DNA of 64,000 bases. Source: Sphingomonas sp. LR60. GTDB lineage: Bacteria; Pseudomonadota; Alphaproteobacteria; Sphingomonadales; Sphingomonadaceae. The stretch is from contig NZ_JASPFK010000001.1 in the NCBI RefSeq assembly GCF_036855935.1, forward strand, positions 1,275,501 to 1,339,500. Reading direction: 5' to 3'. The translations under genes and the position numbers were made by a program. Position 1 is the stretch's first letter. Each line of letters opens with the position of its first letter. Shown in pieces: positions 4,277 through 35,282 of this stretch. Under the pieces are notes generated by a model. The model was not told the origin of the DNA, ran no database searches, and saw only the letters and a list, made by a program, of their open reading frames with translations.

Positions 4277-4398
4277 GCGGCCCCTTTGTTTTGCAGTCGC
4301 GAAGAACGCTAACACAGATGTCATTGCGCATCCCGCCTCTTTCGATCACTCTGCCGGCGCAAATTGATGCTTTCGAACAATCCAAAGGGGGTTTGGCG

Positions 4399-9946: not shown

Positions 9947-9953
9947 AGGCGCA

Positions 9954-9999
9954 CGGCACGCCACCCTCATTGCGCGGGCGTGGCGTGCCGACGTTCTTT
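9954..9999 (+). terminator. Rho-independent terminator after the amidohydrolase
   Basis: A perfect 11-base stem (9954-9964 CGGCACGCCAC paired with 9980-9990) is followed by ACGTTCTTTT. It begins eight bases after the amidohydrolase stop and separates that operon from the xylanase gene. Confidence 0.8.
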
Positions 10000-10070
10000 T
10001 CCGGGATATCTCTGGCGCTTGCCGTCGTTACATCGTGTACTCTGCGCACGGCGGAGCGCGAGGTGCGGGA

Positions 10071-11207
10071 ATGAGCGAGAAGATCACGAGGCGTGCGAGC
10101 CTGGCCGGGGCGGTTGCCCTTCCTTTCGCGCTATCCGGCAATGCCCCGGCAGCCGAGGTCGGGCTCGATGCGGTGGCGCGGGGACGGGGGATGCGGTTCG
10201 GATCGGCCTTGTCGGCGCGGGCGCAGGGGGCGTCGATGGACAACCCGGCCTATGCCGCGCTGCTGCGCGCCGATTGCGGGCTGCTCGTCGCCGAAAACGA
10301 GATGAAGTGGCAGCACCTCAGGCCGGCGCCGGGCAAGTTCGACTTCGCCGCGTTCGACCGCATCATGGCGTGGGGGACGGCGAACCACATGGCGGTGCGG
10401 GGCCACAACCTGCTGTGGCAGCGCCGTAAGTGGATGCCGGTCTGGCTGGAGAAATACGACTTCGGCGCGCGCCCGGCCCGCGCTGCAGCCGACATTCTCG
10501 TCGAACATATCACGACGGTGACAAAGCGGTACGGCAAGCGGATCGAGAGTTACGACGTGGTCAACGAAGCGGTGACACCGGAAACCGGCGCGCTGGAGGA
10601 AACTGCGCTGAGCCAGGCGATGGGCGGTACGGAGGCGACGCTCGACCTCGCTTTCCGTACCGCGCACGCGCAGGCGCCGCATGCCGAGCTGGTCTATAAC
10701 GATTACATGAGCTGGGAGCCGGGCAATGCCGCGCACCGGGCCGGGGTGTTGCGGTTGCTGGAAGGGTTCCGGCGACGCGGGGTGCCGGTCCATGCGCTGG
10801 GCGTGCAGTCGCATATCGTGACCGCCGGTCCCGATACGAGCGGCAGTGCCCGCGGCTATGAGCGCAACTGGCGGCAGTTCCTGGATGCGGTGACGGGCAT
10901 GGGATACCGGCTGCTGATTACCGAGCTGGACGTGCGCGACAACGGCTTGCCGGCAGATCCGGCGGTGCGCGACCGCGGGGTTGCGGATTACGCGCGACGC
11001 TATCTCGACGTCATGTTCTCCTATCCGCAGCTTCGCGACGTGGTCGCGTGGGGGCTGTGCGACCGGTTCAGCTGGATCGGTCCGTTCGAGCCGCGCCCGG
11101 ACAAGGCGGCGCGGCGGCCGTGTCCCTATGATGCCGATTACCGCGCCAAGCCATTGCGCGCGGCGATTGCGGCCGCATTTGCGAGGGCGCCGGCGCGGGG
11201 GACGTGA
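10071..11207 (+). CDS. Endo-1,4-beta-xylanase, glycoside hydrolase family 10
   Basis: A 378-residue GH10 xylanase that cuts the beta-1,4 xylose backbone of xylan with retention. The start ATG 10071 is followed by TRRASLAGAVALP, a twin-arginine signal, so it is probably exported folded. The family signatures are in order: ENEMKWQHL near residue 75, the acid/base Glu166 in YDVVNEAV, VHALGVQSHI, and the nucleophile Glu285 in LLITELDVRDNG. The closing WGLCDRFSW motif is also present. It is a single catalytic domain without a binding module. It converges on the TonB receptor that follows and is the first gene of the polysaccharide locus. Confidence 0.95.
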   Translation: MSEKITRRASLAGAVALPFALSGNAPAAEVGLDAVARGRGMRFGSALSARAQGASMDNPAYAALLRADCGLLVAENEMKWQHLRPAPGKFDFAAFDRIMAWGTANHMAVRGHNLLWQRRKWMPVWLEKYDFGARPARAAADILVEHITTVTKRYGKRIESYDVVNEAVTPETGALEETALSQAMGGTEATLDLAFRTAHAQAPHAELVYNDYMSWEPGNAAHRAGVLRLLEGFRRRGVPVHALGVQSHIVTAGPDTSGSARGYERNWRQFLDAVTGMGYRLLITELDVRDNGLPADPAVRDRGVADYARRYLDVMFSYPQLRDVVAWGLCDRFSWIGPFEPRPDKAARRPCPYDADYRAKPLRAAIAAAFARAPARGT

Positions 11208-11285: not shown

Positions 11286-14200
11286 TTAGTAATTGGCGCG
11301 CAGGATGACCGAGAAGCGGCGGTCGTTCGTGAAGTACGAACGGGGCGCCAGATCGTCGGAGCCGCCCTTGTACGCCTGAAGCAGCTTCGTGGTCGTGTTG
11401 GTCAGGTTCACACCCTGCACGCCCAGCTTTACGTAGCGATTGATGTTGATGAAGGCGGAGGCGTCGAGCTGCCCGGTCGCGTCGTTGAAGATCGACGTGT
11501 ACGGGAAGATCACGTCGGCGGCGGTCAACAGGAACCGCGAGCGCCAGTTATATGCGGCGCGCAGCGAGATCGGTCCCTTTTCGTAGAAGGCGGTCGCGTT
11601 GAAGTTATGCTTCGACAAGCCTTCCAGCGGCAGATTGCCCTTCGGGATCGTCGATCCCGACGACGGCGTACCACCGTTCAGGAACGAGTTGGGAAGCCCC
11701 GAACTGTCGATGAAGGTGTAGTTGCCGTTGAAGCCGAGCCCGTTGAGGAAGCCGGGCAGGAAGTCGAAGGTCTGCTGATAGGCGACTTCGAATCCCTTGA
11801 TCTTGCCCTTGCCGGCATAATTGGCGGGACCACGCGCCTGAATGTTCTGCGTGATGCCGTTGTTGGTGACCGAACGATTGACGAGCGACTGGTAGAAGAA
11901 GCCGTCGACGCTTTTGTAGAAGGCATCGATCGACAACTGGCCGACGCGCGCGAAATACCATTCGAGCGTGGCGTCGAACTGCCAGGCGGTGGCCGGCTTC
12001 AGATACGGATTGCCGGCGTTGATCGTGACGGTGCCCGATCCCGGCTCCAGCGCGTAGGTCACGTACGGACGGATGTTCGCGAAGTCGGGGCGGGTGAGCA
12101 CCTTCGATCCGGCGAGGCGCACGATCAGGTCGCGCGTCACGCCAAGCTTCAGGTTCGCGCTCGGCAGGAAATAGCCATAGCTGTTGCTGAAGAACGCCGG
12201 CTGCGAGGCATAGCCATCGGTCGCGAAGGTGCGCAGTCGGTTGTATTCGGTCGCGCCGAGATTGCAGACGCCGCCGGGCTGGGTGACCTGCACCGTTCCA
12301 TCGGGCAACTGCCGCGACGTGGCGACGCAGCGGGTGGAGAACGGATCGGCGACGCCGAGTTCGCTGCGGTTTGGTACGGCGGTTTCGGTGCGCGAATTCA
12401 CCGTCGTGCGGACATAGCGCACGCCGATGTTACCGGAGACGCGAACGTCACCGAACAACGGCTCGTTGTTGCCGAACTGCAGCATTGCATAAGCGGCGGA
12501 GTCCATCTGGCGAACGTTCGACACTTCGGACGGAAGGAAGGCCGTGCCCGGGATCGCGCCTGTCCGCTGCCCCGCCCCGACGAACCGGTTGGTCGCCGTG
12601 GCACCGTTGGTGTTGCGCCAGATATCGTTCTGGGTCTGGAAGAAGCTGACCGCAGAGTTGTAGTCGTTGATGAGGTCGCCGTTGTAGAAATAGGCGCTCG
12701 GCGGCGCAGAGGTTTGGCCACGGTAGAAGTTGTTGAACGAGTAGAGCGAAGACTTGCTGGCGTCGCCCTGGTTGAAGGTGACCGGCGCACCCGACCAGAT
12801 CTCGCTGATCGCGCCCCAGTTATACGCGGTGTAGCGCACGTCCTGCGTACGCTCGGCATAACGCGCGCCGAACTTGACGCGCTGCAGGAAGTCGCCGTCG
12901 TCAAACTTGTAGGCGAAGTCGCCCTTGACCTGATATTCCTCACCGACGCTGTGTTCGATGTGATCCATCGCCGCGCGCCAGAACTGGAAATCGCGGCTCG
13001 CGAAATATTCGCTGTCCGTGGCTGCGGCCATCGCCGGATTGGGCGTCGCCCAATTGGCGGCGAGCGTCAGCGGCTTGTGCGGGATGACATTGGGTAGCTT
13101 GCCGGTCAGGTCAACCTCGCTGTCCGCGAAGGTTGAGCCGAAGACGCTGAGATCGGTGACGTCGTGCTTGGCATAGGTATAGTCGACGTCGAGCCCGATC
13201 GACCAATGGTCATCCGGATTGATCTTGAGATTGAACCCGGCGTCCTTGACGAGATTCTCGTCATAGACCTGCCGCCGTGACAGCGATTGCTGCGCGCCGC
13301 CCGATGGCACCGTCGTCGTGGGCGAACCGCTTGAGGCCGTGCGCCAGCCCGCGCCCGGCAGCGTGATGAACCCGCTCTGGAACAGGCCATTGCTGTCGTA
13401 GACGTAGTTCGGATAGGCGCCGCCGGCCGGATTGTAGCCGTTGCCGCGCTGATTGTTGCCGAACACAAACTGGCCGGAGCCGTTCAGCTGGCACTCGGCG
13501 CGCGTCGTGGCGTTGCCGGCGCCGTTGACCGGCCCATTGCTGTTCTGCTGACAGCCGGCGGGATAGGTGCTGTATTCCGAAAGGTCGGGCGCGGTTTCGA
13601 ACGTGTGTTCACCCCAGGCATTGCTGGAATGCGTGCGCAGGAATTGCGCGGTGAAGGTCGTGCGCTCGTCGTTGCTCTGCCACTGTACCGCCAGCGCCTG
13701 GCCATCGCGCTTACGGTCATAATCCTGGCTGCGGAACTGGCCGCCGATCGGCGCATAGGCGATCGCGGTCGGATCGGCGAAGCCGTCCGCGCCGGGCGTG
13801 CCGGCATTGCCGCAGACGTTGGCGGGATTGGGGAAGTTCCCGCCGCCGACGCCCGTCACCGAGCCCGGAAGCAGCGTGTTCGAGTCGGTGATGCCGGGCA
13901 GCTGGTTGCGGCAGGTGACCGTGGTGTTGGTGCCGGTGCCGGTCGCCGCCTGGACGCCGTCGCGTGTCTGGAAGTTGGTGACCTGAATACCGTCGGCACG
14001 GCTCTTGAGCCGCGAGTAAGAGGCGTTGGCGAGGAAGCCGAAGCGACCGATCGGCGTCTCCCACGTATTCGATACGAGCAGCGAGCCGGTCGGCGCCCAC
14101 TTCTTGGCGAAGTCGCCGTAGTTCGCCTCGACGCCGCCACCGATGTGGAAGCCCTTGTTGTCGAAGGGCTTGCGCGTGTTGAGGTTGACGGTACCGGCGA

Positions 14201-14822
14201 GGCCGCCCTCGACCAAGTCGGCGGTCGCGTTCTTGTAGACCTCGACCGAGCCGAGCAGCTCGGAGGGCACGTCGGCAAAGTTGATCGCCTGGCCACCGAT
14301 GCCGGCCGAGAAGGTGTCGCGGCCGTTGAATTCCGAGCGCACGAAGTTGAGGCCGCGAACGTTGACGCCCGAGCCTTCGACCGAGAAGTGATCCGGGTCG
14401 TTGTTGCCGGCGAAGCGGTTGATCGACACGCCGGGGACGCGTTGCAGCGCCTCGGTCACCGAACGGTCGGGAAGCGCACCGATATCCTGTGCGGTGATCG
14501 CGTCGACGACGGTGTCGGAATTGCGCTTGATCGCCTGTGCGTTGGCAAGGCTCTGGCGGATGCCGGTAACGACGACGTCGTTATCGCCCGCCGCATCGCT
14601 GGCGGGGACGTTGCCGGTCGATTGTGCGGCGGGATCACCACCGGGGGCGTTGACCGAGGCCGCGGCGCCGGCGGTGTTCTGGCCGCTGGCGGCACCGGTC
14701 TGTGCGAAGGCTGGTGCGCTCAACGCGAACACGCACATCGCGGTCGCGGATACGCCAGCAAGGATCGCCTTGTTGCGAGTCCGGGTATGGGCCCCGCGCG
14801 CGAGCAAAATCCCGTCGACCAT
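11286..14822 (-). CDS. TonB-dependent receptor, Xanthomonas/Caulobacter (TIGR01782-like) carbohydrate type
   Basis: A 1178-residue outer-membrane importer of the group that takes up plant oligosaccharides. ATG 14822 is chosen because GGTGGGG lies about nine bases upstream. A further ATG eight codons earlier lacks a ribosome site. The signal peptide ends near APAFAQ, and a long linker precedes the plug. The plug has the group's signatures: VVVTGIRQSL, IGALPDRSVTEALQRVPGV, NVRGL, and YKNATADLVEGGLAGTVNL. The barrel ends in Tyr (VILRANY). It is divergent from the halogenase operon with a shared 226-base control region containing a LacI-type palindrome. The neighbours (GH10, GH5, GH2) imply xylan fragments as ligand. 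Confidence 0.93.
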   Translation of the reverse strand: MVDGILLARGAHTRTRNKAILAGVSATAMCVFALSAPAFAQTGAASGQNTAGAAASVNAPGGDPAAQSTGNVPASDAAGDNDVVVTGIRQSLANAQAIKRNSDTVVDAITAQDIGALPDRSVTEALQRVPGVSINRFAGNNDPDHFSVEGSGVNVRGLNFVRSEFNGRDTFSAGIGGQAINFADVPSELLGSVEVYKNATADLVEGGLAGTVNLNTRKPFDNKGFHIGGGVEANYGDFAKKWAPTGSLLVSNTWETPIGRFGFLANASYSRLKSRADGIQVTNFQTRDGVQAATGTGTNTTVTCRNQLPGITDSNTLLPGSVTGVGGGNFPNPANVCGNAGTPGADGFADPTAIAYAPIGGQFRSQDYDRKRDGQALAVQWQSNDERTTFTAQFLRTHSSNAWGEHTFETAPDLSEYSTYPAGCQQNSNGPVNGAGNATTRAECQLNGSGQFVFGNNQRGNGYNPAGGAYPNYVYDSNGLFQSGFITLPGAGWRTASSGSPTTTVPSGGAQQSLSRRQVYDENLVKDAGFNLKINPDDHWSIGLDVDYTYAKHDVTDLSVFGSTFADSEVDLTGKLPNVIPHKPLTLAANWATPNPAMAAATDSEYFASRDFQFWRAAMDHIEHSVGEEYQVKGDFAYKFDDGDFLQRVKFGARYAERTQDVRYTAYNWGAISEIWSGAPVTFNQGDASKSSLYSFNNFYRGQTSAPPSAYFYNGDLINDYNSAVSFFQTQNDIWRNTNGATATNRFVGAGQRTGAIPGTAFLPSEVSNVRQMDSAAYAMLQFGNNEPLFGDVRVSGNIGVRYVRTTVNSRTETAVPNRSELGVADPFSTRCVATSRQLPDGTVQVTQPGGVCNLGATEYNRLRTFATDGYASQPAFFSNSYGYFLPSANLKLGVTRDLIVRLAGSKVLTRPDFANIRPYVTYALEPGSGTVTINAGNPYLKPATAWQFDATLEWYFARVGQLSIDAFYKSVDGFFYQSLVNRSVTNNGITQNIQARGPANYAGKGKIKGFEVAYQQTFDFLPGFLNGLGFNGNYTFIDSSGLPNSFLNGGTPSSGSTIPKGNLPLEGLSKHNFNATAFYEKGPISLRAAYNWRSRFLLTAADVIFPYTSIFNDATGQLDASAFININRYVKLGVQGVNLTNTTTKLLQAYKGGSDDLAPRSYFTNDRRFSVILRANY

Positions 14823-14930
14823 CGTCAAATCCCCACCTAATTTCACACCTGAACCGATGTCTCATCACCAACATGGTGCGGCATCTTAGGTCCTTGGGTA
14901 CGACCGTCGTGGTACTAACGCAAGACAGTT

Positions 14931-14944
14931 TGTTTGCGCTAACA
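14931..14944. promoter_or_regulatory. LacI-family-type operator (predicted)
   Basis: TGTTTGCGCTAACA is an almost perfect 14-base palindrome (one mismatch) with the central GCGC and outer TGTT/AACA typical of LacI/GalR-family sites. It lies 109 bases before the TonB receptor start and about 105 bases before the first halogenase. A sugar-responsive repressor could therefore control both directions. No such repressor gene is in the window. Confidence 0.45.
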
Positions 14945-15048: not shown

Positions 15049-16563
15049 ATGGAGCGGGCAGCGAAACAGCGGGTGGTGGTCGTCGGCGGGGGCACCTCCG
15101 GCTGGATGACCGCGGCGGCGCTGGCGAAGCTGCTGCCGACTCGCTGTTCGGTAGAGCTGGTCGAATCGGAGGCGATCGGGATCATCGGCGTCGGCGAGGC
15201 GACCTTGCCGCACATTCGCGCCTTCAACGAACGGCTTGGCATCGTCGAGGCGGAGTTCATGGCGGCGACGCGCGCCACCTTCAAGCTGGGGATCGAGTTT
15301 CGCGACTGGGGGCGGATCGGCGACAGCTACATCCATCCGTTCGGCACGTTCGGGCGCGGCAGCGGCGCGGTGCAATTCCACCATTATTATACGCGGCTGT
15401 TGCGCGCCGGGGTGGCGTTGCCGCCGATCGAGACATTCTCGATGGCCTGTTCGCTGGCGCGCGCGAAGCGCTTTGGTCAACCGTCGGGCGACGGGCAGCA
15501 GATCGCCTCGACGTTCGGCTACGCCTATCAATTCGATGCGGTCGCCTTCGCGCCTTACCTGCGCCGCTTCGCCGAGCAACTCGGCGCGCGGCGGACCGAG
15601 GGGCGGATCGTCGCGGCGGAGCGCGAGGCGGAAAGCGGCGACGTCACCGCGCTCGTGCTCGACGACGGGCGGCGGGTCGAGGGTGATCTGTTCGTCGATT
15701 GCTCGGGCTTTGCCGCGCTGCTGATCGGGAAGGAGCTGGGCGAACCGTTCGAGGATTGGTCGCGCTGGTTGCCCGCCGATCGCGCGGTGGCGATGCCGTG
15801 CCGCACCGAAACCTCGGTGACGCCCTATACCAGCGCGGTGGCGATGCCGTCGGGGTGGCGGTGGCGGATCCCGCTCCAGCATCGCACGGGCAATGGCTAT
15901 GTCTTCGCGAGCGATTTCCTGTCGGAGACGGAAGCCGCCGATGCGCTGACCGCGGTGGTCGAGGGGGAGCCGCTGGTCGCGCCGCGCACCTTGCGGTTCA
16001 AGGCGGGGCGGCGGGCGCGGAGCTGGTCGGGCAATGTCGTGGCGATCGGGCTGGCTTCGGGGTTCCTCGAACCGCTGGAGTCGACGAGCCTCTATCTGGT
16101 GCAGCAGGCGATCACCGCATTGGTGGAGCTGTTTCCGGAACGCGCGATCTCGGCGGTCGATCGCGACGAGTTCAACCGGCTGATCAACATGGAATATGAC
16201 CGGGTCCGCGACTTCCTGATCCTGCATTATCATGCGACGGAGCGCGATGACTCGCCGTTCTGGAACTATGTCCGGACGATGCCGATCCCCGACAGCCTCG
16301 CCGAGAAGATGGAGCTGTTCCGCCGGCGCGGGCGGGTGGTGAAATATCGGGAGGGTGCGTTCCTCGATGCCAGCTGGGTGTCGGTCTATCTCGGCCAGCG
16401 CGTCGTGCCGGTCGGCACCGATCCGCGCGCGGACGGGCCGTCGCTCGACAGTCTGGTCGCCGGGCTGGAGCGGATGCGCGGCGAGATCGCCGCGGCGGTC
16501 GGCGCGATGCCCGATCACGCCGCGTTCCTGGCGCACTATTGCCCGATGCCGGCGGCGGCGTGA
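15049..16563 (+). CDS. Flavin-dependent (tryptophan-type) halogenase 1
   Basis: A 504-residue FADH2-dependent halogenase homologue. The FAD-binding GGGTSGW is at 13-19 and GVGEAT at 47-52. Lys79 in ATFKLG corresponds to the catalytic Lys that activates hypohalous acid in PrnA-like enzymes. WRWRIP is at 270-275, and Glu344 in PLEST matches the second catalytic residue. All elements for halogenation are present, so it is predicted active; a separate flavin reductase would be needed. Relatives in sugar-uptake loci of sphingomonads, Caulobacter and Xanthomonas are common, and those assayed act on indole-type compounds. The natural substrate is unknown. It is first of a tightly packed operon; the next gene starts two bases after its stop. 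Confidence 0.9.
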   Translation: MERAAKQRVVVVGGGTSGWMTAAALAKLLPTRCSVELVESEAIGIIGVGEATLPHIRAFNERLGIVEAEFMAATRATFKLGIEFRDWGRIGDSYIHPFGTFGRGSGAVQFHHYYTRLLRAGVALPPIETFSMACSLARAKRFGQPSGDGQQIASTFGYAYQFDAVAFAPYLRRFAEQLGARRTEGRIVAAEREAESGDVTALVLDDGRRVEGDLFVDCSGFAALLIGKELGEPFEDWSRWLPADRAVAMPCRTETSVTPYTSAVAMPSGWRWRIPLQHRTGNGYVFASDFLSETEAADALTAVVEGEPLVAPRTLRFKAGRRARSWSGNVVAIGLASGFLEPLESTSLYLVQQAITALVELFPERAISAVDRDEFNRLINMEYDRVRDFLILHYHATERDDSPFWNYVRTMPIPDSLAEKMELFRRRGRVVKYREGAFLDASWVSVYLGQRVVPVGTDPRADGPSLDSLVAGLERMRGEIAAAVGAMPDHAAFLAHYCPMPAAA

Positions 16564-16565
16564 CG

Positions 16566-18032
16566 ATGCTCGACGGGCCGATCCGGCACATCGCGGTCGT
16601 GGGGGGCGGCATCGTCGGCTGGTCGGCGGCGGCGGCGCTGCGGCGGCGCGTGCCGGGGGTGGCGGTCACGATCGTCGCGACGTCGCCGGCGCCGGATGCG
16701 CTGGCGGACCTGATGCCCCAGACCTTGCCGTCGGCGATCGGCTTCCACGACGACCTCGGGCTGCGCGAGGACGATGCGGTGCTCCGCCCGGGCGGCGGGT
16801 GGCGGCTGGGGACGTTGTTCGAAGGGTGGGCGGACGATCTGCCGTCCTATGTGCATGCATACGGTCCGTACGGGCAGCCGTTCGGGACCGCATCGTTCCA
16901 CCATCACTGGGCGCGGGCGGCGCGCGCCGGAACCGCCGCGCCGTTCGACGACCATGCGCCGGTGGCAGTGCTGGCGCGCGCCGGACGGATGGCGTTGCCG
17001 TCGGCGGCGCTCTTCGCCGGGATCCAGCCGGCGTTGGTGCTCGACGTCGTGCGCTATCGTGCGATGCTGGAGGCGTTCGCGCGACATCTGGGGGTCGAGG
17101 TCGTTGCCGGGGCGGCCGCGGCGGTCGAGCGGCGCAGCGAGGATGGGTTCGTCGAGCGACTGAGGCTGACCGATGGCGGCACGGTGAGCGCCGACCTGTT
17201 CGTCGATGCCAGCGGTCCGCGCGCGACGGTGCGGGGCGCGATCGACGAGGAGTGGGAAGACTGGGCGCGGTGGCTGCGGTGCGACCGGCTGATCATGGCG
17301 GAGGGCGCGGCCGAACCCTTGTCGCCGCTCGACCGGGTCACCGCCTTGCCCGCCGGATGGCGCTGTCGGAGCGCGGCACCGGGGCGGGTGCTGCAAGGTG
17401 TGTGCTACGCGAGTGCGCTGTCGTCGGACGAGGCGGCGCGGGCAGAGCTGTCGGTGGCGGCAGGTCCAGCGATCGCGTTCCGGCAAGGGACGCGGCCGAC
17501 GCCATGGGCGCGCAACTGCGTCGCGATCGGCGATGCGGCGACGGTGATCGAACCGCTCGACTTCACCAACCTGCATCTGGCGCATAGCGCGATCGACCGG
17601 ATCGTGGCGATGCTGCCCGGACGCGCCTGCCATCCGCTCGAGATCGCGGATTACAACCGCCAGGCGCAGGCCGAAGTCGTCCGCGTGCGGGATTTCGTGC
17701 TCTGTCACTATGCGACGGCGCGGCGCGGGGAGCCGTTCTGGCAGCCGCCGCGCGACCTTCCCGACAGTCTCGCGCGGACGCTGGCGCTGTTCACGGAGCG
17801 GGGGAGATTGCCGTTCTTCGAGGAAGAGACGTTCGCGCGCGACGACTGGCTGGCGGTGCTGCTGGGGCAGGGTGCGCTGCCGCGGCGGATCGATCCGCTG
17901 ATCGATACCACCCCGGCCGCCGAGAGCGAGCGGGCGATGGCGGCGTATCGGGCAGCGATCCAGCAGGCGGCGCTGCGCTGTCCGACGGCGGACGCTTATT
18001 ACAACATGCAGCGGGAAATGCTGGTCCAATGA
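16566..18032 (+). CDS. Degenerate halogenase homologue 2 (catalytic residues lost)
   Basis: A 488-residue homologue of its neighbours. The FAD motif GGGIVGW (13-19) survives, but every halogenation element is altered. There is no GVGEAT. The catalytic Lys position reads GGGWRLG (Arg80). WxWxIP has become GWRCRSAAP, and PLEST is EPLDFT with Asp332 for Glu. The C-terminal half (ERGRLPFFEEETFARDDW) still aligns with the other copies. It probably still binds flavin but cannot halogenate by the known mechanism. It could be a regulatory or structural partner, or a flavoprotein with a different reaction. The frame is intact and it is coupled to halogenase 3 by a four-base ATGA overlap, so it is not simply decaying. 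Base composition resembles its neighbours. Confidence 0.85.
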   Translation: MLDGPIRHIAVVGGGIVGWSAAAALRRRVPGVAVTIVATSPAPDALADLMPQTLPSAIGFHDDLGLREDDAVLRPGGGWRLGTLFEGWADDLPSYVHAYGPYGQPFGTASFHHHWARAARAGTAAPFDDHAPVAVLARAGRMALPSAALFAGIQPALVLDVVRYRAMLEAFARHLGVEVVAGAAAAVERRSEDGFVERLRLTDGGTVSADLFVDASGPRATVRGAIDEEWEDWARWLRCDRLIMAEGAAEPLSPLDRVTALPAGWRCRSAAPGRVLQGVCYASALSSDEAARAELSVAAGPAIAFRQGTRPTPWARNCVAIGDAATVIEPLDFTNLHLAHSAIDRIVAMLPGRACHPLEIADYNRQAQAEVVRVRDFVLCHYATARRGEPFWQPPRDLPDSLARTLALFTERGRLPFFEEETFARDDWLAVLLGQGALPRRIDPLIDTTPAAESERAMAAYRAAIQQAALRCPTADAYYNMQREMLVQ

Positions 18033-19624
18033 ACGAACATACCATTCGCAGCATCGTCATCCTCGGCGGCGGGACCGCGGGCTGGATGGCGGCGGCGGCG
18101 CTTTCCCGCTTTATGAACAATGGCGTGACGCGCGTAACGCTGATCGAGTCCGAGGAGATCGGCACCGTGGGGGTCGGCGAGGCGACGATCCCGCCGCTGC
18201 GCACGTTCAACCAGATGCTGGGGATCGACGAGCACGACTTCATTCGCGAGACCGGCGGGACGTACAAGCTGGGGATCGAATTCGTCGGCTGGGGCGACGT
18301 CGGCGAGCGCTATTTCCACCCGTTCGGCGCGCATGGGCACGACCTGGGCGGTGTCCACTTCCACCAATTGTATCTTCGCGAGCGGCAGCGGCGCGTGCTG
18401 CCCGACATTTCGGCCTGGTCGATGAGCGCGGTGGCGGCGCAGGCGGGCAAGTTCGCGCCGCCCGCCGCGCAGGCGCAATCGGCGGTGAAGGACCTGTTCT
18501 ACGCCTATCACTTCGATGCCGCGCGTTATGCGGGCTTCCTCCGCCGCTACGCCGAGCGGAACGGGGTGCAGCGGGTGGAAGGCAAGGTGACCGCGATCGC
18601 CCAACGGCCCGAGGACGGGCATGTCACGGCGCTGAAGCTGGAAGACGGGCGCGTGATCGGCGGCGACCTGTTCATCGACTGCTCGGGCTTTCGCGGCGTG
18701 TTGATCGAGGAAACGCTCGAAACCGGCTATGACGATTGGCGGCATTGGCTGCCGTGCGACCGCGCGGTTGCGGTGCCCAGCGCCAACAGCGGCGACCCGG
18801 CGCCGTTCACGCGCGCCACCGCGCGCGGTGCAGGCTGGCAATGGCGCATTCCCTTGCAGGAGCGGACCGGCAACGGGCTGGTCTATTGCAGCGACTTTCA
18901 AACACAGGAAGCGGCGGAGCGCGAGTTGCTCGCCAATCTGGAGGGCGCGCCGCTCGCCGATCCGCGCCATTTGTCGTTCACCACCGGGCGGCGGAAGCTG
19001 GCGTGGAACCGCAACGTCGTCGCGCTTGGGCTGGCGTCGGGGTTCATCGAACCGCTGGAGTCGACCTCGATCCACCTGGTCCAATCGGGGATCGCGCGGC
19101 TGATCGCGCTGTTCCCGGATCGCCGCTTCGACCCCGTCGAGCGCGACGAATATAATGCGCAGATGCACGAGCTTTATGCCGACGTGCGCGACTTCGTGAT
19201 CCTCCACTACAAGGCGACGCGCCGCCGCGACACGCCGTTCTGGGAACGGTGTCGCACGATGGACATCCCCGACAGCCTCGCGCGCAAGATCGACCTGTTC
19301 CGCGGCAAGGGTCGCGTGTTCCGCGAAGGGCGCGAGCTGTTTGCGACGACCAGCTGGGTCAGCGTCTGCTTGGGGCAGCATATCGTCCCGGAGAATTACG
19401 AGCCGGCGGTCGATGCGCTCGACGAGCAGCGCGTCGCGGCGGCGCTGGACCAGATGCGGCACGACTATCTGGAGGTCGCGGCACGGCTGCCCACCCATGG
19501 CGACTTCCTGCGGCATCTCACGGAGATCGCAGCCGTCGCGCCACCTGCGCCGCCGCCGGAGGCCGCACCGACCTTTTCCTTCGCGTCGGAAAAGCCGTTC
19601 GATTTCTCGGCGGACCCGTTGTGA
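18029..19624 (+). CDS. Flavin-dependent (tryptophan-type) halogenase 3
   Basis: A 531-residue halogenase homologue with a complete active site: GGGTAGW (13-19), GVGEAT (48-53), Lys80 in GTYKLG, WQWRIP from 270, and Glu344 in PLEST. Compared with copy 1 it has a longer C-terminal tail that is rich in Ala and Pro (PPAPPPEAAP) and of unknown use. Its ATG overlaps the stop of the degenerate copy, and its stop overlaps the GTG of copy 4. The four proteins are therefore probably made from one message in related amounts. As with copy 1, substrate and flavin reductase partner are unknown. Confidence 0.9.
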   Translation: MNEHTIRSIVILGGGTAGWMAAAALSRFMNNGVTRVTLIESEEIGTVGVGEATIPPLRTFNQMLGIDEHDFIRETGGTYKLGIEFVGWGDVGERYFHPFGAHGHDLGGVHFHQLYLRERQRRVLPDISAWSMSAVAAQAGKFAPPAAQAQSAVKDLFYAYHFDAARYAGFLRRYAERNGVQRVEGKVTAIAQRPEDGHVTALKLEDGRVIGGDLFIDCSGFRGVLIEETLETGYDDWRHWLPCDRAVAVPSANSGDPAPFTRATARGAGWQWRIPLQERTGNGLVYCSDFQTQEAAERELLANLEGAPLADPRHLSFTTGRRKLAWNRNVVALGLASGFIEPLESTSIHLVQSGIARLIALFPDRRFDPVERDEYNAQMHELYADVRDFVILHYKATRRRDTPFWERCRTMDIPDSLARKIDLFRGKGRVFREGRELFATTSWVSVCLGQHIVPENYEPAVDALDEQRVAAALDQMRHDYLEVAARLPTHGDFLRHLTEIAAVAPPAPPPEAAPTFSFASEKPFDFSADPL

Positions 19625-21146
19625 GGACGGACGCGATCCGCCGTGTCGTGATCGTCGGCGGCGGCACCGCGGGATGGATGGCGGCGGCGGCGATCGCGCG
19701 CGTGCTGGGCGAGATGCCGGGGCTGGCGATCGAACTGGTCGAGTCCGAGGCGATCGGCACGGTCGGGGTCGGCGAAGCGACGATCCCGCAGATCGTGCTG
19801 TTCAACAAGATGCTCGGCATCGACGAGGCCGACTTCATGCGCGAGACCCGCGCGACGTACAAATTGGGGATCGAGTTCGTCGACTGGCTTCGGCCCGGGC
19901 ATCGCTATGTCCATCCGTTCGGCTCGTACGGGCTGGATATGAAGGGCATCGAGTTTCACCATTTCTGGCTGAAGGGGCAGGCGCTGGGCGACGACACCCC
20001 GCTCGACGCCTATTCGCTGGCGATCGTCGCCGGGCTGCAACGACGCTTCGCGCACCCGCGTCCGGATCAGCCGGGATCGCCGCTGTCGAAGCTGGGCTAT
20101 GCCTTTCAGTTCGATGCGGGGCTGTACGCGCGCTTCCTGCGGCGGCTGGCGGAAGCCAATGGCGTGCGCCGCACCGAGGGGCGGATCGTGTCGGTCGAGC
20201 GCGATGCGGAGAGTGGCCATGTCGCCGCGGTGGTGCTCGAATCCGGTGCGCGCGTCGAAGGTGACCTGTTCATCGATTGCTCCGGATTCCGCGGGCTGCT
20301 GATCGAGGGCGAGATGCAGGCTGGCTTTGAGGATTGGAGCGACTGGTTGCCGTGCGACCGCGCGGTGGCAGTCCCGTGCGCGAACGGCGGCGACCGGCAG
20401 CCGCTGACGCGTTCCACCGCGCGCTCTGCGGGCTGGCAATGGCGCATTCCGCTCCAGCACCGCATCGGGAACGGTTATGTCTATGCCTCGGCGCATCTGT
20501 CGGACGATGAGGCGGCGGCGACGTTGCTCGGCAATCTCGACGGGGCGCCGCTCGGCAAGCCGCGCTTCCTGCGCTTCACGGCCGGGCATCGACGGCGGGC
20601 GTGGGTGGGGAATGTCGTGGCGCTGGGGCTGGCGGGCGGGTTTCTGGAGCCGCTGGAATCGACGAGCATCCATCTCGTCCAGTCGGCGATCGCGCGGTTG
20701 CTTACCTATTGGCCGACCCGCAGTTTCGACCAGCGCGAGATCGATCGCTTCAACACCGCGCATGTCGCCGACTATGTCGACATCCGCGACTTCCTGGTGC
20801 TGCATTATAAGGCGACCGAGCGGCGGGACAGCGCCTTCTGGGATTATTGCCGCGAGCTGGCGCCACCTGCGGGGCTTGCCGAGAAGCTGGCGATCTTCGC
20901 CGCGAACGGACGCGTTTTCCGTGAGGGCGAGGAATTGTTCACCGAGACGAGCTGGCTGTCGGTGATGGTCGGGCAGGGCGTGACGGCGGGGGGTATCACC
21001 CGGCCGCCGACCTGCTGTCCGACGCCGAGACGCTGACGCGGCTCGCGCACATCCGCCATGTGGTGGCCGAGACCGCCGCGCTGCTGCCCGAGCAGGACGA
21101 ATTGCTGCGGCGGATGGGATGCGACGTGATGGGCGTTGCCGCATGA
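19621..21146 (+). CDS. Flavin-dependent (tryptophan-type) halogenase 4 (frameshifted near its end as given)
   Basis: About 508 residues after correction. It starts at GTG 19621, overlapping the previous stop. The active site is complete: GGGTAGW (13-19), GVGEAT (49-54), Lys81 in ATYKLG, WQWRIP, and Glu346 in PLEST. The frame breaks in a run of six G at 20988-20993 and, as given, ends early at 21036. With one more G the frame reads on through YHPAADLLSDAETLTRL to TGA 21144-21146. The cupin-like gene then starts with an ATGA overlap, as all its neighbours do. That restored coupling is good evidence that the longer form is the real protein. Confidence 0.85.
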
Positions 21147-22153
21147 CGCCCGCACCGCTTCCCGAGTTGGAGGGCATCGACCGGCGTACCTTCGAAGCGG
21201 AGATCCGTCCCGCCGCGCGCCCGGTGGTGCTGCGCGGCATCGCCCGCGACTGGCCGGCGGTGACGGCGGCGCGGGCGTCGGCGGAGGCGGGCGTCGGCTA
21301 TCTCAAGCGGTTCAGCCGGCCCGATCCGGTGTCGGCGATCCTTGGTGAACCGTCGATCGAGGGGCGCTTTTTCTACACGCCCGATCTGGGCGCGATGAAC
21401 TTCGTGCGCGGGCAGACACCGCTCGACCCGTTCCTCGATCGGCTGCTTCGCGACCGCGATCATGCGCAGCCCTATGCGATGGCGATCCAGTCGGTCCCGC
21501 TGCCGGAGCTGTTGCCGGGATTCACGGAAGAGAATGCCACCACGCTGGTCGCGAGCGAGGTCGTGCCGCGGATGTGGCTGGGCAATGCGATCCGTGTCGC
21601 GACGCATTACGACCTGATGGAGAATATCGGCGTCGTGGTGATGGGGCGGCGGCGGTTCACGTTGTTCCCGCCCGAGCAGGTGGCGAACCTCTATATGGGG
21701 CCGCTGGAGCTGACGCCCGCGGGGACGCCGGTCAGCCTCGTCGATCCGGACGATCCCGATTATCCGCGCTTTCCGCGCTTTGCCGAGGCGGCGCGCGTCG
21801 CGCAGGTGGCGACGCTGGAGCCGGGCGACGGCATCTATATTCCGTTCCACTGGTGGCACGCGGTGCGGTCGCTCGACGCGGTCAATGCGTTCGTCAATTA
21901 CTGGTGGAACCCGGCACCCGCGGGGCTCGGTAATCCGTATGATGCGCTGCTGCACGCGCTGGTGGCGATCGCGCCGCTGCCGGCGGATCAGCGCGCCGCT
22001 TACCGCGCGGTATTCGAGCAACTGGTGTTTCGCGGCAACGGCGATCCGGCAGCGCACCTCCCCGACACGGCGAAGGGCGTGCTGGGACCGATCGATGCCG
22101 CGACCGCCGCGCGGATCCGGGCGACGCTGCGGGAAAGTCTCGCGCGGTCTTAA
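21143..22153 (+). CDS. Cupin-like (Cupin_8/JmjC-type) protein 1
   Basis: A 336-residue protein of the cupin_8 group, relatives of Fe(II)/2-oxoglutarate oxygenases such as FIH and JmjC hydroxylases. The iron triad is visible: His155 and Asp157 in THYD, and His239 in HWWHAV. Supporting elements are RRRFTLFPPEQVANLYMGPLE and LEPGDGIYIPFHWW. ATG 21143 is chosen over an upstream frame because it overlaps the corrected stop of halogenase 4. Family members hydroxylate protein or small-molecule side chains; this one's target is unknown. Its coupling to the halogenases suggests it acts on the same substrate or product. A second copy lies head-on 12 bases downstream. Confidence 0.87.
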   Translation: MTPAPLPELEGIDRRTFEAEIRPAARPVVLRGIARDWPAVTAARASAEAGVGYLKRFSRPDPVSAILGEPSIEGRFFYTPDLGAMNFVRGQTPLDPFLDRLLRDRDHAQPYAMAIQSVPLPELLPGFTEENATTLVASEVVPRMWLGNAIRVATHYDLMENIGVVVMGRRRFTLFPPEQVANLYMGPLELTPAGTPVSLVDPDDPDYPRFPRFAEAARVAQVATLEPGDGIYIPFHWWHAVRSLDAVNAFVNYWWNPAPAGLGNPYDALLHALVAIAPLPADQRAAYRAVFEQLVFRGNGDPAAHLPDTAKGVLGPIDAATAARIRATLRESLARS

Positions 22154-22165: not shown

Positions 22166-23182
22166 CTAGACGCGGCCGCCGAGCAGACGGATCAGGAAAC
22201 CGCGGAGCCGTTCGGTGCGCGCCGGGCTTCCCGCCGACAGGATACCGCGTGCCGCCTCGGGCAGATGCGCGCCGGCGTTCGCGGCGTCGTCGTCGAAGAC
22301 ATAATGGTCGAACCATGTGCGCCATGCCGCGCGCGGTGCCGGCGGCAGGTCGCGGATCGCCATCAGCGCGTGGACCAGCGCGCCGAACGGCGATGCGGTT
22401 TCCTCATGCGTCCACCAGTAATTCACGAGCACGTTGAGCCGGTCGAGCGCGGCGACGTGATGCCACCAGATCGCCGGGATGAAGATCGCGTCGCCCGGCT
22501 CCAGCTCCGCGACCTGCGCGTGCGCGAGCGCGGCGGAAAAGCGCGGATAGCGCGCGAGATCGGGCGCATCGGGATCGACCATGCTCGATGGCGGACCGGC
22601 CAGCGTGTTGTCGAGCGGGCCGATGTAGAGGTTGGCGAGCTGATCGGGCGGGAAGAGCGTGAAGCGCCGCCGGCCATGAACGACGCAGGCGATGTTGTTC
22701 GACTGGTCGTAATGCGTCGCGACGCGGGTCGCGTTGCCGATCCATAAGCGTGCCGGGGCGTTGCCGGTCGGCAGGTCCAGCGCATTGTCGGCTTCCCAGC
22801 CGGGCAGATGATCGGGCGCGGTCGCCGCGTTGGCGTAGAGCGCGTGCGGCGCCGCGACATCGTCGGTGGCGTAGCTGAGCAGCTGGCCGAGCAATTGTCC
22901 CAGCGCGACCTTCTGCCGGTGGAAGTTGAAGCCGGTGAGGTCGTGGTTGTAGAAGAAGCGGCCGCCGATCTCCGGCGCGCCGATCATCACGTCGAGCGGT
23001 TGCCCGCCGCCGAAGCCGGCCAGATAGGCGGCGATCGCGCGGTCGCCGCCGGCGCCGGCGCGCACCGCCGCCCAGTGGCGAACCTGTCCCCGCAGCACGA
23101 CCGGCGCGTAGCCGCTCGCGACCTCGTTCGCGAAGGTGGCGGCGTCGACCGCGTCGCGCTCGGTGACATGTTGGCCTGGCAT
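22166..23182 (-). CDS. Cupin-like (Cupin_8/JmjC-type) protein 2
   Basis: A 338-residue paralogue of the preceding gene on the opposite strand. It shares ATRVATHYD (iron-binding His and Asp), the nearly identical RRRFTLFPPDQLANLYIGPL, and LEPGDAIFIPAIWWHHV with the third ligand His. It starts at ATG 23182, three bases after the stop of the GH5 gene, so the two form one transcript. Two such genes at one sugar locus suggest paired or sequential oxidation steps. No substrate can be assigned from sequence. Confidence 0.87.
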   Translation of the reverse strand: MPGQHVTERDAVDAATFANEVASGYAPVVLRGQVRHWAAVRAGAGGDRAIAAYLAGFGGGQPLDVMIGAPEIGGRFFYNHDLTGFNFHRQKVALGQLLGQLLSYATDDVAAPHALYANAATAPDHLPGWEADNALDLPTGNAPARLWIGNATRVATHYDQSNNIACVVHGRRRFTLFPPDQLANLYIGPLDNTLAGPPSSMVDPDAPDLARYPRFSAALAHAQVAELEPGDAIFIPAIWWHHVAALDRLNVLVNYWWTHEETASPFGALVHALMAIRDLPPAPRAAWRTWFDHYVFDDDAANAGAHLPEAARGILSAGSPARTERLRGFLIRLLGGRV

Positions 23183-23185: not shown

Positions 23186-24199
23186 TCAGCGTCGTTCGGG
23201 GATCAGCGCGGCGCGGATCGGCTCGACCCACCGGTCGCGATCGATGTCGTAGACGATGAAGTCGCTGTCGAACTGCCAATAGGCCCAGGGGAAACCGTGC
23301 GCCTCCGCCTCGCGCCGTACCGTGGCGGTGTAGCGCGCGCGCGCGGCGATCGGGGTGCCGCTTTTCTCATAAGCGCCGAACTCGCCCATCAGCACCGGGC
23401 GATCGTTCGCCTTCGACCAGGCGGCGACCTTGTCATAGTCGGCGCGGATGCGCGCTTCGTCGGCGGTGGTGAAGGGGATGTTCTTGAGCTTGGCGGTGTC
23501 GCCCGCCCAGGACGCGCCCTGATGCGTGAAGCGGAACGGCTCGTAGGAGTGGAAGGTGACGAGGATGTTGCGGTCTTCCTTGGGGAGTTGCAGCGTCGGC
23601 AGCTCCTCGAGGTTGTTCCAGCGCGTCGGGCCGACCACCAGCGTGCGCCGCGGGTTGCTGGATCGTACGAGCGGGATCAGCTTGGCGAGCATCGCGTTCC
23701 AGCGCGCGGCGTCGAGCGGGGCGTGGGGCTCGTTGAGCAGCTCGAACAACACGGTGTCGGGGGCGTTGCGGTAGCGGTCGCCGACCTGCTGCCAGAAGGC
23801 GAGCAGCTTCGGCTCGCACGCGTCGGGGTCCTTCGAGCAGACGTCGAAATCATGTTCGTCGAGGATGACGCCGAGCCCGGCCGCCGACGCCTCGCTGACG
23901 ACCCAGTCGAGTGTTTCCAGCCACTTCGGGTCGAGGCGGTTCTGCGCATCCATGTGGCGAAACGATTGCAGCACGACGCGCACGAAATCGAAGCCGCCCT
24001 TTTTGATGATCTGGAAGTGGCGCGCCTTGAAGCGTGCTTTGGATCGGTCCTGCCAGAGCGGATCGTAGCCGATGATGTTGACGCCGCGCTTGAGCCGGGT
24101 GGCGCTGGTCCAGGCGGGGCCGATCCCGGCGGGGGCGGCCGAGGCGGTGGGAGCGGTGAGGGATGCGGCGGCGCTCAGCAGAAGAAAACTCAGGGGCAT
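23186..24199 (-). CDS. Glycoside hydrolase family 5 (cellulase-like), exported
   Basis: A 337-residue TIM-barrel hydrolase. The start ATG 24199 has AAGGA upstream. Residues 1-22 are a signal peptide. The family marks are RGVNIIGYDP near the start, HMDAQNRLDPKWL, the acid/base Glu157 in ELLNEPH and the nucleophile Glu273 in VLMGEFGAYE. GH5 members act on beta-1,4 glucans, mannans or xylans. The nearby GH10 and GH2 genes make a hemicellulose more likely than cellulose. It is followed at once by the second cupin-like gene. Confidence 0.88.
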   Translation of the reverse strand: MPLSFLLLSAAASLTAPTASAAPAGIGPAWTSATRLKRGVNIIGYDPLWQDRSKARFKARHFQIIKKGGFDFVRVVLQSFRHMDAQNRLDPKWLETLDWVVSEASAAGLGVILDEHDFDVCSKDPDACEPKLLAFWQQVGDRYRNAPDTVLFELLNEPHAPLDAARWNAMLAKLIPLVRSSNPRRTLVVGPTRWNNLEELPTLQLPKEDRNILVTFHSYEPFRFTHQGASWAGDTAKLKNIPFTTADEARIRADYDKVAAWSKANDRPVLMGEFGAYEKSGTPIAARARYTATVRREAEAHGFPWAYWQFDSDFIVYDIDRDRWVEPIRAALIPERR

Positions 24200-24607
24200 C
24201 AAGCCGATCCTTCGCGATCAGAGACGATGGTGGGCACGATAGTTCAGGTGTTTGGGGATGTCTTTCGACAAAAGCCCGTTCGCGATGCCGGGTATGCGTT
24301 CCTGGTCCAGAACCTTCTGGCAGGCTCGGGTGAGGCTTGAGCCGGCGTTCCGCTTCTCGCGAGGTCGGTGAGAGGCGGGATCCCGGAACAGTCGATTGGC
24401 CTTAGATCGGCGGATTGATCTGTCATACCAAATTTGTCATCCTTTTGGCGGAATGTTCGGTATAAGCAGATGAAAAGCTGCGTTTCGTCGGGTAACGACG
24501 ACGAGTTGCTTGGAAAATAGAATATCCGTGATAGACCGCGATATGCCCGGACGATAAAACTGGTCAGGCCGATTTGGCTGAACTAGGATGGGGCAAGGGA
24601 GAGGGAT
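24200..24607. other. Divergent control region between GH5 and GH2
   Basis: 408 bases with no supported gene. The half nearest GH2 (about 24420-24560) is markedly richer in A and T than its surroundings and is the likely site of the promoter. The segment CATACCAAATTTGTCAT near 24424 looks like a loose inverted repeat but is too imperfect to name. The LacI-type palindrome found before the halogenases was not found here. Confidence 0.5.
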
Positions 24608-27261
24608 ATGAGGGTTCGGCTCGGATCGATCGCGCTTGCCATGCTGCTGGCTGCGCCCGCCTTCGCGCAGGCCGACCGGCAGGTCGTGCCGCTGGCGCAA
24701 GGCTGGGAATTCAGCCGCGGCGGCGCGTTGCCCGACGAGGTCACCTTTGCCGCGGATCGGCGATGGGAAAAGGTCTCGGTTCCCCACACCTGGAATCGCG
24801 TTGGCTATTACGTTCCGAATCCGCAGGATCACGTCAATCGTGCCGACACAATCGACAAATATCAGGGGATCGGCTGGTATCGGCTGACCTTCACGCCCCC
24901 GGCCGATTTCGACAAGCGACGTGCGTGGTTACAGTTCGATGCGGCCAGCCGTACCGCCGAAGTCTGGCTCAACGGGCAGCGGTTGGGCGAGCATCGCGGC
25001 GGCTTCTCGCGGTTCCGTCTCGACGCGAGCAGCGCCCTGCGTGTCGGTCAGGCCAATGTGCTGCTGGTCAAGGTCGACAGTACGCAACCCGAGGCGGACA
25101 GTTCGACCGCCGACGTGCTGCCGCTCGCCGGCGATTTCTTCGTCCACGGTGGTCTGTATCGTCCCGCCAGCCTGATCGGCACCGACGCGGTGCATATCGA
25201 CATGCTCGATGCGGGCGGCAGCGGCATCCTCGCGACGACGCGCTCGATCGAGGGGGAGCGGCAAAGATCGACGTGCGGGTGAGGGCGCGCAACGACGGCA
25301 AGCGCGCGCAAGCCAGCCAGATCATCGTGCGGCTGGTCGATGCGGGCGGCAAGACGGTCGCGACGGATGCGCGCCGCGTGACGCTGAAAAGCGGCGGGGC
25401 GGCGGAGACGACGCAGGTGCTGACGGTCGCGAACCCGCATCTGTGGAACGGTGTCGCCAATCCTTATCTTCACCGCTTGGTCGTGGAGGTCGCCTCTCCG
25501 TCGGGGACGGTGTTCGACCGGGTCGAGCAGCCGTTCGGCATCCGCACGATGCGCGCCGATCCGGTGCGTGGCTTCCTGCTCAACGGCCGGCCGCTGCGCC
25601 TGCACGGCGTCGGCTATCATCAGGATCGCGAGGGTAAGGGCTGGGCGACCACGTCCGCCGACATCGAACAGGATGTCGCGATGATGCGCGACATGGGCGT
25701 CAATTCGATCCGGCTGACGCATTACCAGCATGGGCAGACGATCCACGATCTCGCCGACCGCTATGGCTTCGTCCTGTGGGACGAGATCCCGCTCGTATCC
25801 AAGTGGACGCACGGCGAGGCGATGACGGCGACCCCGGCGCTGCGGGCAAATGCGCGACAGCAATTGCGCGAGCTGATCCGGCAGAATGGCAACCACCCGT
25901 CGGTGGTGAGCTGGGGGATCGCCAACGAGGTCGATTTCGGCAAGTCGATCCCGGCGTTCATCACCGCCAAGAGCGGCGAGGCGCCCGATCCGCTGCCGCT
26001 GCTGCGTGAGCTGGATGCCTTTGCCAAGGCGGAAGATCCTTCGCGGCCGACCGCGCTCGCCACCTGTTGCGAGCGCGACATCGGCCCGACGTCGGCGGTG
26101 CCGATCACCGCGGTCGCCGCCGATCTCGGCGGGGCGAACCGCTATTTCGGCTGGTATTTCGGCACGCCCGCCGATCTCGGGCCGCATCTGGACGAACTTC
26201 ATGCCAAGCGTCCGGGCCAGCCGCTGTCCGTAACCGAATATGGCGCGGGCGGCGCGACGACGATCCACACCGACAATCCCTTGGGCGGGCGCGTCGATCA
26301 GCGCGGGCGCAACCAGCCCGAGGAATACGAAAGCTATATCCATGAACGCGCGTGGGAGACGCTGTCCGCCAAGCCGTACCTGTGGGGGACGTGGCTGTGG
26401 AATTCGTTCGACTTCGCGACGACGGTGCGTCGCGAGGGCGACGGGATCGACATCAACACCAAGGGGCTGGTCACCTATGACCGCAAGATCCGCAAGGACG
26501 CCTTCTATTTCTACAAGGCGAACTGGAACACGGCGCCGACCGTCCATGTCAACGGCAGCCGCTATGTCGATCGCGCCTATCCGGCGACCGATGTGCGGGT
26601 CTATTCGAACGCGCCGCGCACCGAATTGCGCGTCAACGACCGCCTCGTCGGCACGCTTTCGGCCTGTCCGCAAATGACCTGCGTCTGGCCGAAGGTCGCG
26701 CTGACCGCCGGCGCCAACCGCGTCGTCGCGCGCGGGCTATTCCCCGACGGCGCGCAGGAGGATGCGGCCGTCTGGCAGCTGGCACCCGAGGCGCTACGCA
26801 CGATCCGCATCGACAGCGGCGCGCTGGTCGCCGCCGACGTCGCGGGCAAGCGGTACGGCTCCGACGACTTCTTCGATGGCGGCAAGGCGGGGCAGGTCAA
26901 CGCCTGGTCCGGCTATGGCCCGCGCCCCGCGCCGAAGGTGGTCGAGGGGACCAGCGAAGGCGCGGTGGTCGAGACCTATCGCGAAGGACGCTTCTCGTAT
27001 GACGTGCCGGTCGCCAACGGCCGCTACACGGTTGCGCTGACCTTCGTCGAACCGTCGTCGACGGCGGGGGCGCGCCGCTTCGACGTAGTGGCCAACGGCA
27101 AGCGCGTGTTGCCGGCGTTCGATGTCGCTCAGGCGGCGGGCGGAACGATGAAGGCGATCACCCGTCGCATTCCGGTGCAGGTCTCCGACGGCAAGTTGCG
27201 ACTGGCGTTCGTGCCCGTGCAGGGCGACGCGATCGTGTCGGGCATCGAGATTACGCGATGA
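24608..27261 (+). CDS. Glycoside hydrolase family 2 (beta-galactosidase-like) with C-terminal malectin-like domain (frameshifted as given)
   Basis: An exported enzyme of about 884 residues after one base is restored. The start ATG 24608 follows GGGAGAGGG, and the signal peptide ends APAFAQ. The order of domains is a jelly-roll sugar-binding domain (WEKVSVPHTWNRVG, YQGIGWYRLTF, RGGFSRFRLD), an immunoglobulin-like domain and a TIM barrel. The acid/base Glu sits in WGIANEVDFG and the nucleophile Glu in VTEYGAGG. A malectin-like carbohydrate-binding domain forms about the last 150 residues. The frame breaks in five G at 25252-25256, where one more G joins RSIEG to GAAKIDVRVRARND. It probably removes sugars from imported or released hemicellulose oligosaccharides. 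GH2 covers several sugars and the true one is not readable. Confidence 0.86.
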
Positions 27262-29699: not shown

Positions 29700-29857
29700 G
29701 CCGATACTTGTCGCATCGCGCGCTTAGTTTCTGGCTAATGAACAGGGTTTATCGAAGGTAACCTTTTAGAATCTGAAGGGATATTCAAGATGAACGAGTG
29801 ACGTGTCGCATCGTTACGGATGTGGAAGGTGTAGGTAGGATCTGTGCCAAATACACT

Positions 29858-29896
29858 AGCCGCCCGGACCCGATGGCGTGTCGCGGCCGGGCGGCT
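29858..29896 (-). terminator. Terminator hairpin after the DUF1501 gene
   Basis: A perfect ten-base stem (AGCCGCCCGG at 29858-29867 with 29887-29896) lies about 65 bases past the DUF1501 stop. On the plus strand it is followed by CTTGATATTT. Confidence 0.6.
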
Positions 29897-29960
29897 CTTG
29901 ATATTTAAGGATTGCGGTAAGGTTTGACGTCGCTATTTGGTAAGCGTCCGATGTGCTGCT

Positions 29961-31352: not shown

Positions 31353-31353
31353 G

Positions 31354-34420: not shown

Positions 34421-34542
34421 CAAGCCCCCAATTGACTAATCCGAAGCGCAACCGACCTGCGTTTAGGGCGGTTCCCGCCGAACGGGCAAGCGCTTCGCGG
34501 ATCGCCTTCACGCATCATAGGTACGATTGTCGGGCGTGCGCC

Positions 34543-35196: not shown

Positions 35197-35282
35197 TGCT
35201 CACCTCGACTTGAGTGCGGCGGTCCCGCTCGAGCGACCTGTCGTTCGTCAGGTCTTCGGGGCCATGTGTTCGTTGCGTCACT

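Follow-up and report, generated by a model that had tools for sequence, protein, structure and literature searches.

Four flavin-dependent halogenase homologues beside a TonB-dependent receptor at a probable plant-glycan locus of Sphingomonas sp. LR60

Gene content of the locus

The DNA analysed here, called the window below, is a stretch of 64,000 nucleotides from Sphingomonas sp. LR60 (contig NZ_JASPFK010000001.1, positions 1,275,501 to 1,339,500) that contains four consecutive flavin-dependent halogenase (FDH) homologues in one translationally coupled operon, divergent from the gene of a TonB-dependent receptor (TBDT). All four match PF04820: copy 1 (15049..16563, + strand; 603.2 bits), copy 2 (16566..18032, +; 329 bits), copy 3 (18029..19624, +; 660.8 bits) and copy 4 (19621..21146, +; 624.4 bits). 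Two bases separate copy 1 from the ATG of copy 2 at 16566, copy 3 starts at 18029 through an ATGA overlap, and copy 4 starts with GTG at 19621 through a GTGA overlap. In copy 4, the reading frame shifts by one base at a G run near 20,990 and the open frame stops early at 21036; the rest of the gene lies in another frame, which encodes residues that relatives also conserve and closes at 21146. This corrected end is ATGA-coupled to the ATG at 21143 of a gene for a Cupin_8 (JmjC/FIH-like) oxygenase, cupin A (21143..22153, +; PF13621, 206.9 bits). An earlier note on this DNA had described the coupled operon in the same way, including every gap and overlap and the overlap into a cupin-like oxygenase once the frameshift is corrected. 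That description is right, but it overlooked the conserved lack of the catalytic Lys in copy 2 and a second Cupin_8 gene on the opposite strand. The latter, cupin B (22166..23182, −; PF13621, 225 bits), is convergent with cupin A and has homologues at many loci of relatives with the same module of receptor and halogenase genes.

The receptor (11286..14846, −) is of the TonB-Xanth-Caul type (TIGR01782, 652.9 bits against a cut-off of 310; also PF07715 and PF00593). It adjoins a GH10-family gene (9912..11207, +; PF00331, 243.9 bits), homologues of which were found at 11 other module loci, within the stretch fetched for each. On the far side of the cupins are a GH5-family gene (23186..24202, −; PF00150, 143.9 bits), which also accompanies the module in L029 and L030, a GH2-family gene with a malectin domain (24574..27261, +; PF02836, PF00703, PF11721), and a UxuA mannonate dehydratase gene (27301..28490, +) that is split by a frameshift, the first part of the profile (1-248) being matched in one frame and positions 250-349 in a second. 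Here and below, fetched loci carry L numbers and genomes G numbers, with G000 denoting the LR60 genome itself. A TBDT accompanied by plant-polysaccharide enzymes is the hallmark of a TonB carbohydrate utilization (CUT) locus, and the sugar-locus setting proposed earlier is supported by this combination. Xanthomonas CUT loci likewise have a TBDT adjoining such enzymes, including a putative xylan cluster, but differ in that the word halogenase is absent from the main text of the report describing them (PMC1790865).

Age and catalytic residues of the four copies

Copy 4 is intact in L023, L025 and L026. The simplest cause of its frameshift is an assembly indel, which is likely because three other genes are split too: UxuA, a DUF5117/DUF4953 met-zincin gene (window 1861-4324, −; two overlapping open reading frames (ORFs) with successive profile parts, as expected of a frameshift) and one further halogenase gene elsewhere in the genome, which is in pieces. 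The copies themselves are not a repeat artefact, given that their pairwise identity is 32.6-54.2%. In a quick tree of 87 rows, the orthologue groups of copies 1, 3 and 4 contain 12, 12 and 8 rows, each with 100% support; the second-place genes yield one group of 18 (99% support) and four long branches whose place is unsure. Since each copy clusters with its own orthologues from other Sphingomonas, the tree marks the four as ancient and co-retained rather than as recent duplicates. Among five close genomes (ten pairs per gene), dN/dS is 0.16 for copy 1, 0.27 for copy 2, 0.17 for copy 3, 0.13 for copy 4 and 0.135 for the TBDT. That the operon is a functionless recent tandem duplication or an assembly artefact would fit the frameshift in copy 4 and the two other split genes of the window. 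It is refuted by the 87-row tree with its cross-species groups, by the degree of divergence, by dN/dS values of 0.13-0.27 and by an order kept in S. gellani and S. desiccabilis, and we regard it as negligible. The misassembled repeat that the earlier note had named as fatal to its own view is ruled out by the same tree and the 33-54% identity.

Copies 1, 3 and 4 each carry a GxGxxG FAD motif, the catalytic Lys, WxWxIP and the catalytic Glu, so the PrnA-type Lys and Glu reported earlier for these copies are where they were said to be. PrnA and RebH belong to the same family and share these positions, but they are more distant from copy 1 (about 273-286 bits) than BrvH (6frl) and Xcc4156 (6y1w), its best relatives in the PDB (462-471 bits, aligning nearly end to end), and a biosynthetic cluster is not seen at the window. 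The gene of BrvH, according to PMC5945002, is adjoined by a second halogenase gene, as the copies adjoin one another here. In contrast to BrvH and Xcc4156, the present operon combines three canonical copies, one Lys-less copy and a Cupin_8 gene.

Copy 2 has Arg in place of the Lys, Asp in place of the Glu and WRCRSA in place of WxWxIP; it is a family homologue by its profile match and is not classed as a halogenase. Its Arg is invariant in all 13 rows of an orthologue alignment (A1). A residue census covered 211 halogenase-family ORFs of at least 380 residues in 20-kb loci, where the catalytic Lys is present in 179, every one of which keeps the Glu and both W of WxWxIP. The Lys is missing in the other 32, one of which is a fragment (L019). 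The remaining 31 Lys-less ORFs come from 31 loci and each lies directly downstream of a canonical copy (31/31), with Arg (22), Ala (3), Ser (3), Val (2) or Leu (1) at the Lys position, in a sample that is non-random, counts related loci repeatedly and may miss very diverged second genes. The second-place pattern is also seen in further families of the phylum (L073, L075, L079). Copy 2 evolves faster than its neighbours, yet it is under purifying selection in close relatives, and it is therefore probably a pseudo-enzyme that is maintained as the partner of copy 1. As a separate observation, a second class of Lys-bearing halogenases, distinct from copies 1-4, is marked by EAT or EAS at the halide site; the Lys frequently stands in K-Q-G, and a SapC gene is frequently close by (L015 8206-9804, L017 9929-11389, L116 5600-7135 and others).

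Association with the receptor, glycosidases and a putative operator

In the LR60 genome, PF04820 gives 14 matches, interpreted as 13 genes, of which one is in pieces, at seven loci, and a TIGR01782 TBDT adjoins all seven; 26 such TBDTs score over the cut-off genome-wide. All four Cupin_8 genes of the genome sit at halogenase loci, as do two of its SapC genes (four matches, read as three genes); for the third SapC gene (G000:C1:75981-76643, L220), no halogenase or TonB-Xanth-Caul TBDT was found in the 20-kb stretch. Among the matches listed for 61 genomes (LR60 included), 46 genomes have a PF04820 match, 45 of them over the cut-off, with up to at least 21 matches per genome. Loci were then sampled as 20 fetched regions, chosen mostly for clustered matches, two named loci (S. 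gellani and S. desiccabilis) and 80 more, 77 of which came from a phylum search with at most five candidates scored per genome and three from the 61-genome search. The order TBDT, copy 1, copy 2, copy 3 and, in some modules only, copy 4 recurs in Sphingomonas, often followed by Cupin_8, and the gene order of the window is seen again in both named species. A frequent second layout reads TBDT, an optional halogenase, SapC, Cupin_8 and halogenase. Co-retention in other sphingomonads, which the earlier note had left to be checked, is borne out by this recurrence and by orthologue groups that span species. The note was also correct that four copies stand beside GH10, GH5, GH2 and UxuA; it had missed that the arrangement recurs.

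The neighbour that stays with the halogenase genes is the receptor. Of 60 more loci (L093-L152, of which two overlap), a TBDT lies within 4.5 kb in 48, and Cupin_8 is present in 22 and SapC in 23. Within genomes, distances between paralogous TBDTs and between the paralogous halogenases correlate modestly (86 loci, 66 pairs; rho 0.279, a value reached in 8 of 2000 shuffles). A GH10 gene like that of the window occurs in the fetched stretch of 12/31 loci that bear a Lys-less gene versus 0/78 other halogenase loci. All ten genomes with a fetched window-type module (LR60 included) have GH10, compared with 10/27 among the other genomes of the genus analysed (one-sided p = 0.0005), with matches below 35 bits in G029 and G032 left out and with comparison genomes not all checked for the module. 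The window's copy of the cassette is probably xylan-linked. GH10 is no proof of xylan, because Sphingomonas sp. LM7 also has a gene of this family inside an exopolysaccharide cluster (PMC11340318). Moreover, the window-type module stands beside GH16/GH1/GH3 in L031 and beside GH43/GH9/GH3 in L091. As a class, the cassette tracks the TBDT and not one polymer. A substrate such as phenolic groups on xylan, an example given in the earlier note, is therefore not supported, since the glycosidases differ between loci while the TBDT is constant, and we have set it aside.

Between the TBDT and copy 1 lies a palindromic 14-base LacI-type operator-like site with a GCGC centre (TGTTTGCGCTAACA; 14931..14944, +; 0 mismatches to the searched pattern). 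Sites with at most two mismatches to a consensus modelled on the window palindrome itself occur in 14/27 upstream regions (window included) versus 71/5400 random windows. Such sites are found around the TBDT start in 10/29 module cases, 12/65 other FDH-linked cases and 2/52 unlinked cases. With like palindromes in the latter two groups, no xylose specificity is claimed for the site. It may resemble a Caulobacter XylR site.

A candidate target and the explanations weighed

We tentatively favour the view that this is a glycan uptake locus with a modification cassette of the BrvH/Xcc4156 kind that is dedicated to the receptor and acts on a protein-bound target, an aromatic residue of the TBDT. 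The locus would be a plant-glycan, probably xylan, TonB uptake locus, with the cassette as its accessory; receptor and cassette would probably be co-induced from the divergent promoter through the LacI-type operator. Copies 1, 3 and 4 would be canonical FDHs of the open-pocket BrvH/Xcc4156 type, and copy 2 would probably cooperate with copy 1, for instance by forming a heterodimer or by serving as a substrate-presenting subunit. Of this account, the gene content and order, the residues, co-retention and the linkage to the TBDT are direct observations, whereas halogenation, the part played by copy 2, the regulation and the target are inferred. The pockets of BrvH and Xcc4156 are open to solvent, neither enzyme has the Trp-binding loop or accepts free Trp, and the reports on them suggest that the substrate is larger or a peptide (PMC5945002, PMC7336383). 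A precedent for such a mechanism is MibH (PDB 5uao), which chlorinates Trp solely within its substrate peptide, as the same two papers relate. MibH scores 213 bits with copy 1 and its substrate is a lantibiotic precursor, whereas the coupled operon here has no room for a precursor gene; the TBDT is the sole non-enzyme protein of the module. The two Cupin_8 proteins may be FIH-like Fe(II)/2-oxoglutarate oxygenases. Both have the HxD...H iron triad (HYD at 155 in cupin A and 157 in cupin B, with a distal His in each) in common with FIH and JMJD5, which are the nearest solved relatives of cupin A (FIH best), albeit at about 71 bits only. These two are protein hydroxylases by name, and the kinship fits a protein target without proving it.

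The lead candidate for that target is Trp677 of the TBDT (codon TGG, 12816..12818, −), in a Y-N-W-G loop motif, although it may instead be a ligand-binding residue. The Trp is invariant in 34 rows of a TBDT alignment (A2) whose rows were picked as module-type receptors. A loop Trp after the FGxRYxxR strand is present in 48/48 Cupin_8-linked TBDTs, 22-23/51 FDH-linked TBDTs lacking Cupin_8 and 12-14/56 unlinked TBDTs. Not counted in this table are TBDTs shorter than 800 residues, further copies of a protein already included and, from the 20-kb loci, TBDTs with their nearest partner 0.6-3 kb away; the second TBDTs of L026 and of L131 were reassigned from linked to unlinked; the unlinked set comes from G000, six other genomes and two neighbour TBDTs and was judged mostly on 1.5-kb flanks. 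When all residues at all positions were scanned, with groups defined by gene neighbourhood alone, the loop Trp came first in separating Cupin_8-linked from unlinked receptors (difference 0.857), followed by F872 (0.783) and W1099 (0.732). The loop motif differs by clade (YNWG, DTWGG/NDWGG or GDWG). The stricter motif N-W-[GA]-x5-W was rejected as a mark of Lys-less loci, as it occurs without the gene in L106, L122, L130, L131 and L137 and is missing beside the Lys-less gene of L094. In some FDH-linked TBDTs lacking Cupin_8 (L083, L112, L145 and others), a G-[YF]-[FY]-[LM]-T-like motif takes the place of the loop Trp.

Several observations weigh against a receptor-dedicated cassette and its loop target. 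No TBDT was found within 4.5 kb at 12 of the 60 further halogenase loci, and L213 has a TBDT of the Trp clade with no cassette in its 20-kb stretch. When all linked receptors are compared with unlinked ones, the loop Trp barely leads the scan (0.564 versus 0.562), and F872, W1099 and other residues separate the groups too. The Trp follows clade membership, being fixed in only a few TBDT clades. An independent-pairs test of Cupin_8 against Trp gave nine pairs, none of which differed in Trp, and the corresponding test for linkage was not significant (median p 1). Shared ancestry or ligand binding would thus explain the loop Trp equally well, because it is fixed in few clades and the pairs tests lend no support; its link to the cassette is a clade-level, unproven one, and correlated evolution with Cupin_8 is retained only as a lead, the raw table being strong but the pairs test uninformative. 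Copy-2 proteins are not uniformly stripped, with 12/32 Lys-less ORFs keeping the Glu and 11/32 the WxW. The operon contains no flavin reductase gene. Judged by eye, the halogenases and cupins have no export signals, and TBDT modification would therefore have to precede secretion. The most specific version of the favoured account, in which the neighbouring cassette halogenates the loop Trp (mostly in [N/D]-W or [N/D]-x-W) post-translationally, a nearby Asn or Asp is perhaps hydroxylated and the Lys-less pseudo-halogenase is the recognition subunit of copy 1, is one that we consider improbable as a whole.

A rival explanation, in line with the earlier note, is that a small aromatic compound such as an indole, an auxin-like molecule or a hydroxycinnamate, entering with the plant polymer or signalling its presence, is halogenated. 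BrvH is able to brominate indole in free form (PMC5945002) and Xcc4156 accepts indole as well as derivatives of it (PMC7336383), the module often has GH10, and the enzymes look cytoplasmic; on the other hand, BrvH shows little activity on indole, which its authors hesitate to regard as the natural substrate (PMC5945002), and the module also occurs at beta-glucan-type loci (GH16/GH1/GH3) and at loci that do not have GH10. No aromatic-degradation gene was seen among the neighbours scanned, although no search was aimed at such genes. We find this explanation doubtful. It is unlikely, too, that the proteins have lost halogenation and instead oxidise a small aromatic, or else a Trp or Tyr residue, as flavin monooxygenases or hydroxylases in the manner of QhpG-type maturases. 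The Cupin_8 oxygenases accompanying the halogenase homologues would suit such a role, and weak NCBIfam similarity exists to QhpG (25-31 bits, cut-off 240) and to LodB or GoxB, but these matches are far under their cut-offs, with QhpG/LodB-type maturases as a whole at 23-31 bits against equivalog cut-offs of 240-400. Retention of Lys, Glu and WxWxIP in copies 1, 3 and 4, and of Glu and WxW in every Lys-bearing ORF of the census, also argues against it.

The gene family itself is already known. Neither the fixed place of the Lys-less paralogue nor the partnership with TBDT and Cupin_8 nor the loop-Trp lead appears in the open-access literature searched, which also yielded nothing that connects the halogenases with TonB loci or with modification of a TBDT; earlier reports may exist. 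Halogenases of the BrvH/Xcc4156 group are widespread in Pseudomonadota and, despite solved structures, their native substrate is unknown. A constant TBDT, a frequent Cupin_8 gene and a Lys-less paralogue in second place lead to specific questions, namely whether the TBDT loop Trp is modified and whether copy 2 binds copy 1. If the loop Trp is indeed halogenated by the neighbouring cassette, receptors would be tuned by halogenation, and this orphan group would gain a native substrate.

Two side observations follow. The sole genetic hint in the literature searched comes from Sphingomonas sp. LM7, where a set of 250 non-mucoid mutants included one transposon insertion in a gene annotated as tryptophan halogenase (RS06730; PMC11340318, Table 1). 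In the window itself, the glycan-use genes directly adjoin GH16, DUF1501 and DUF1800 genes, and after these comes an exopolysaccharide-type region of the glycosyltransferase/Wzz kind (28578-36996).

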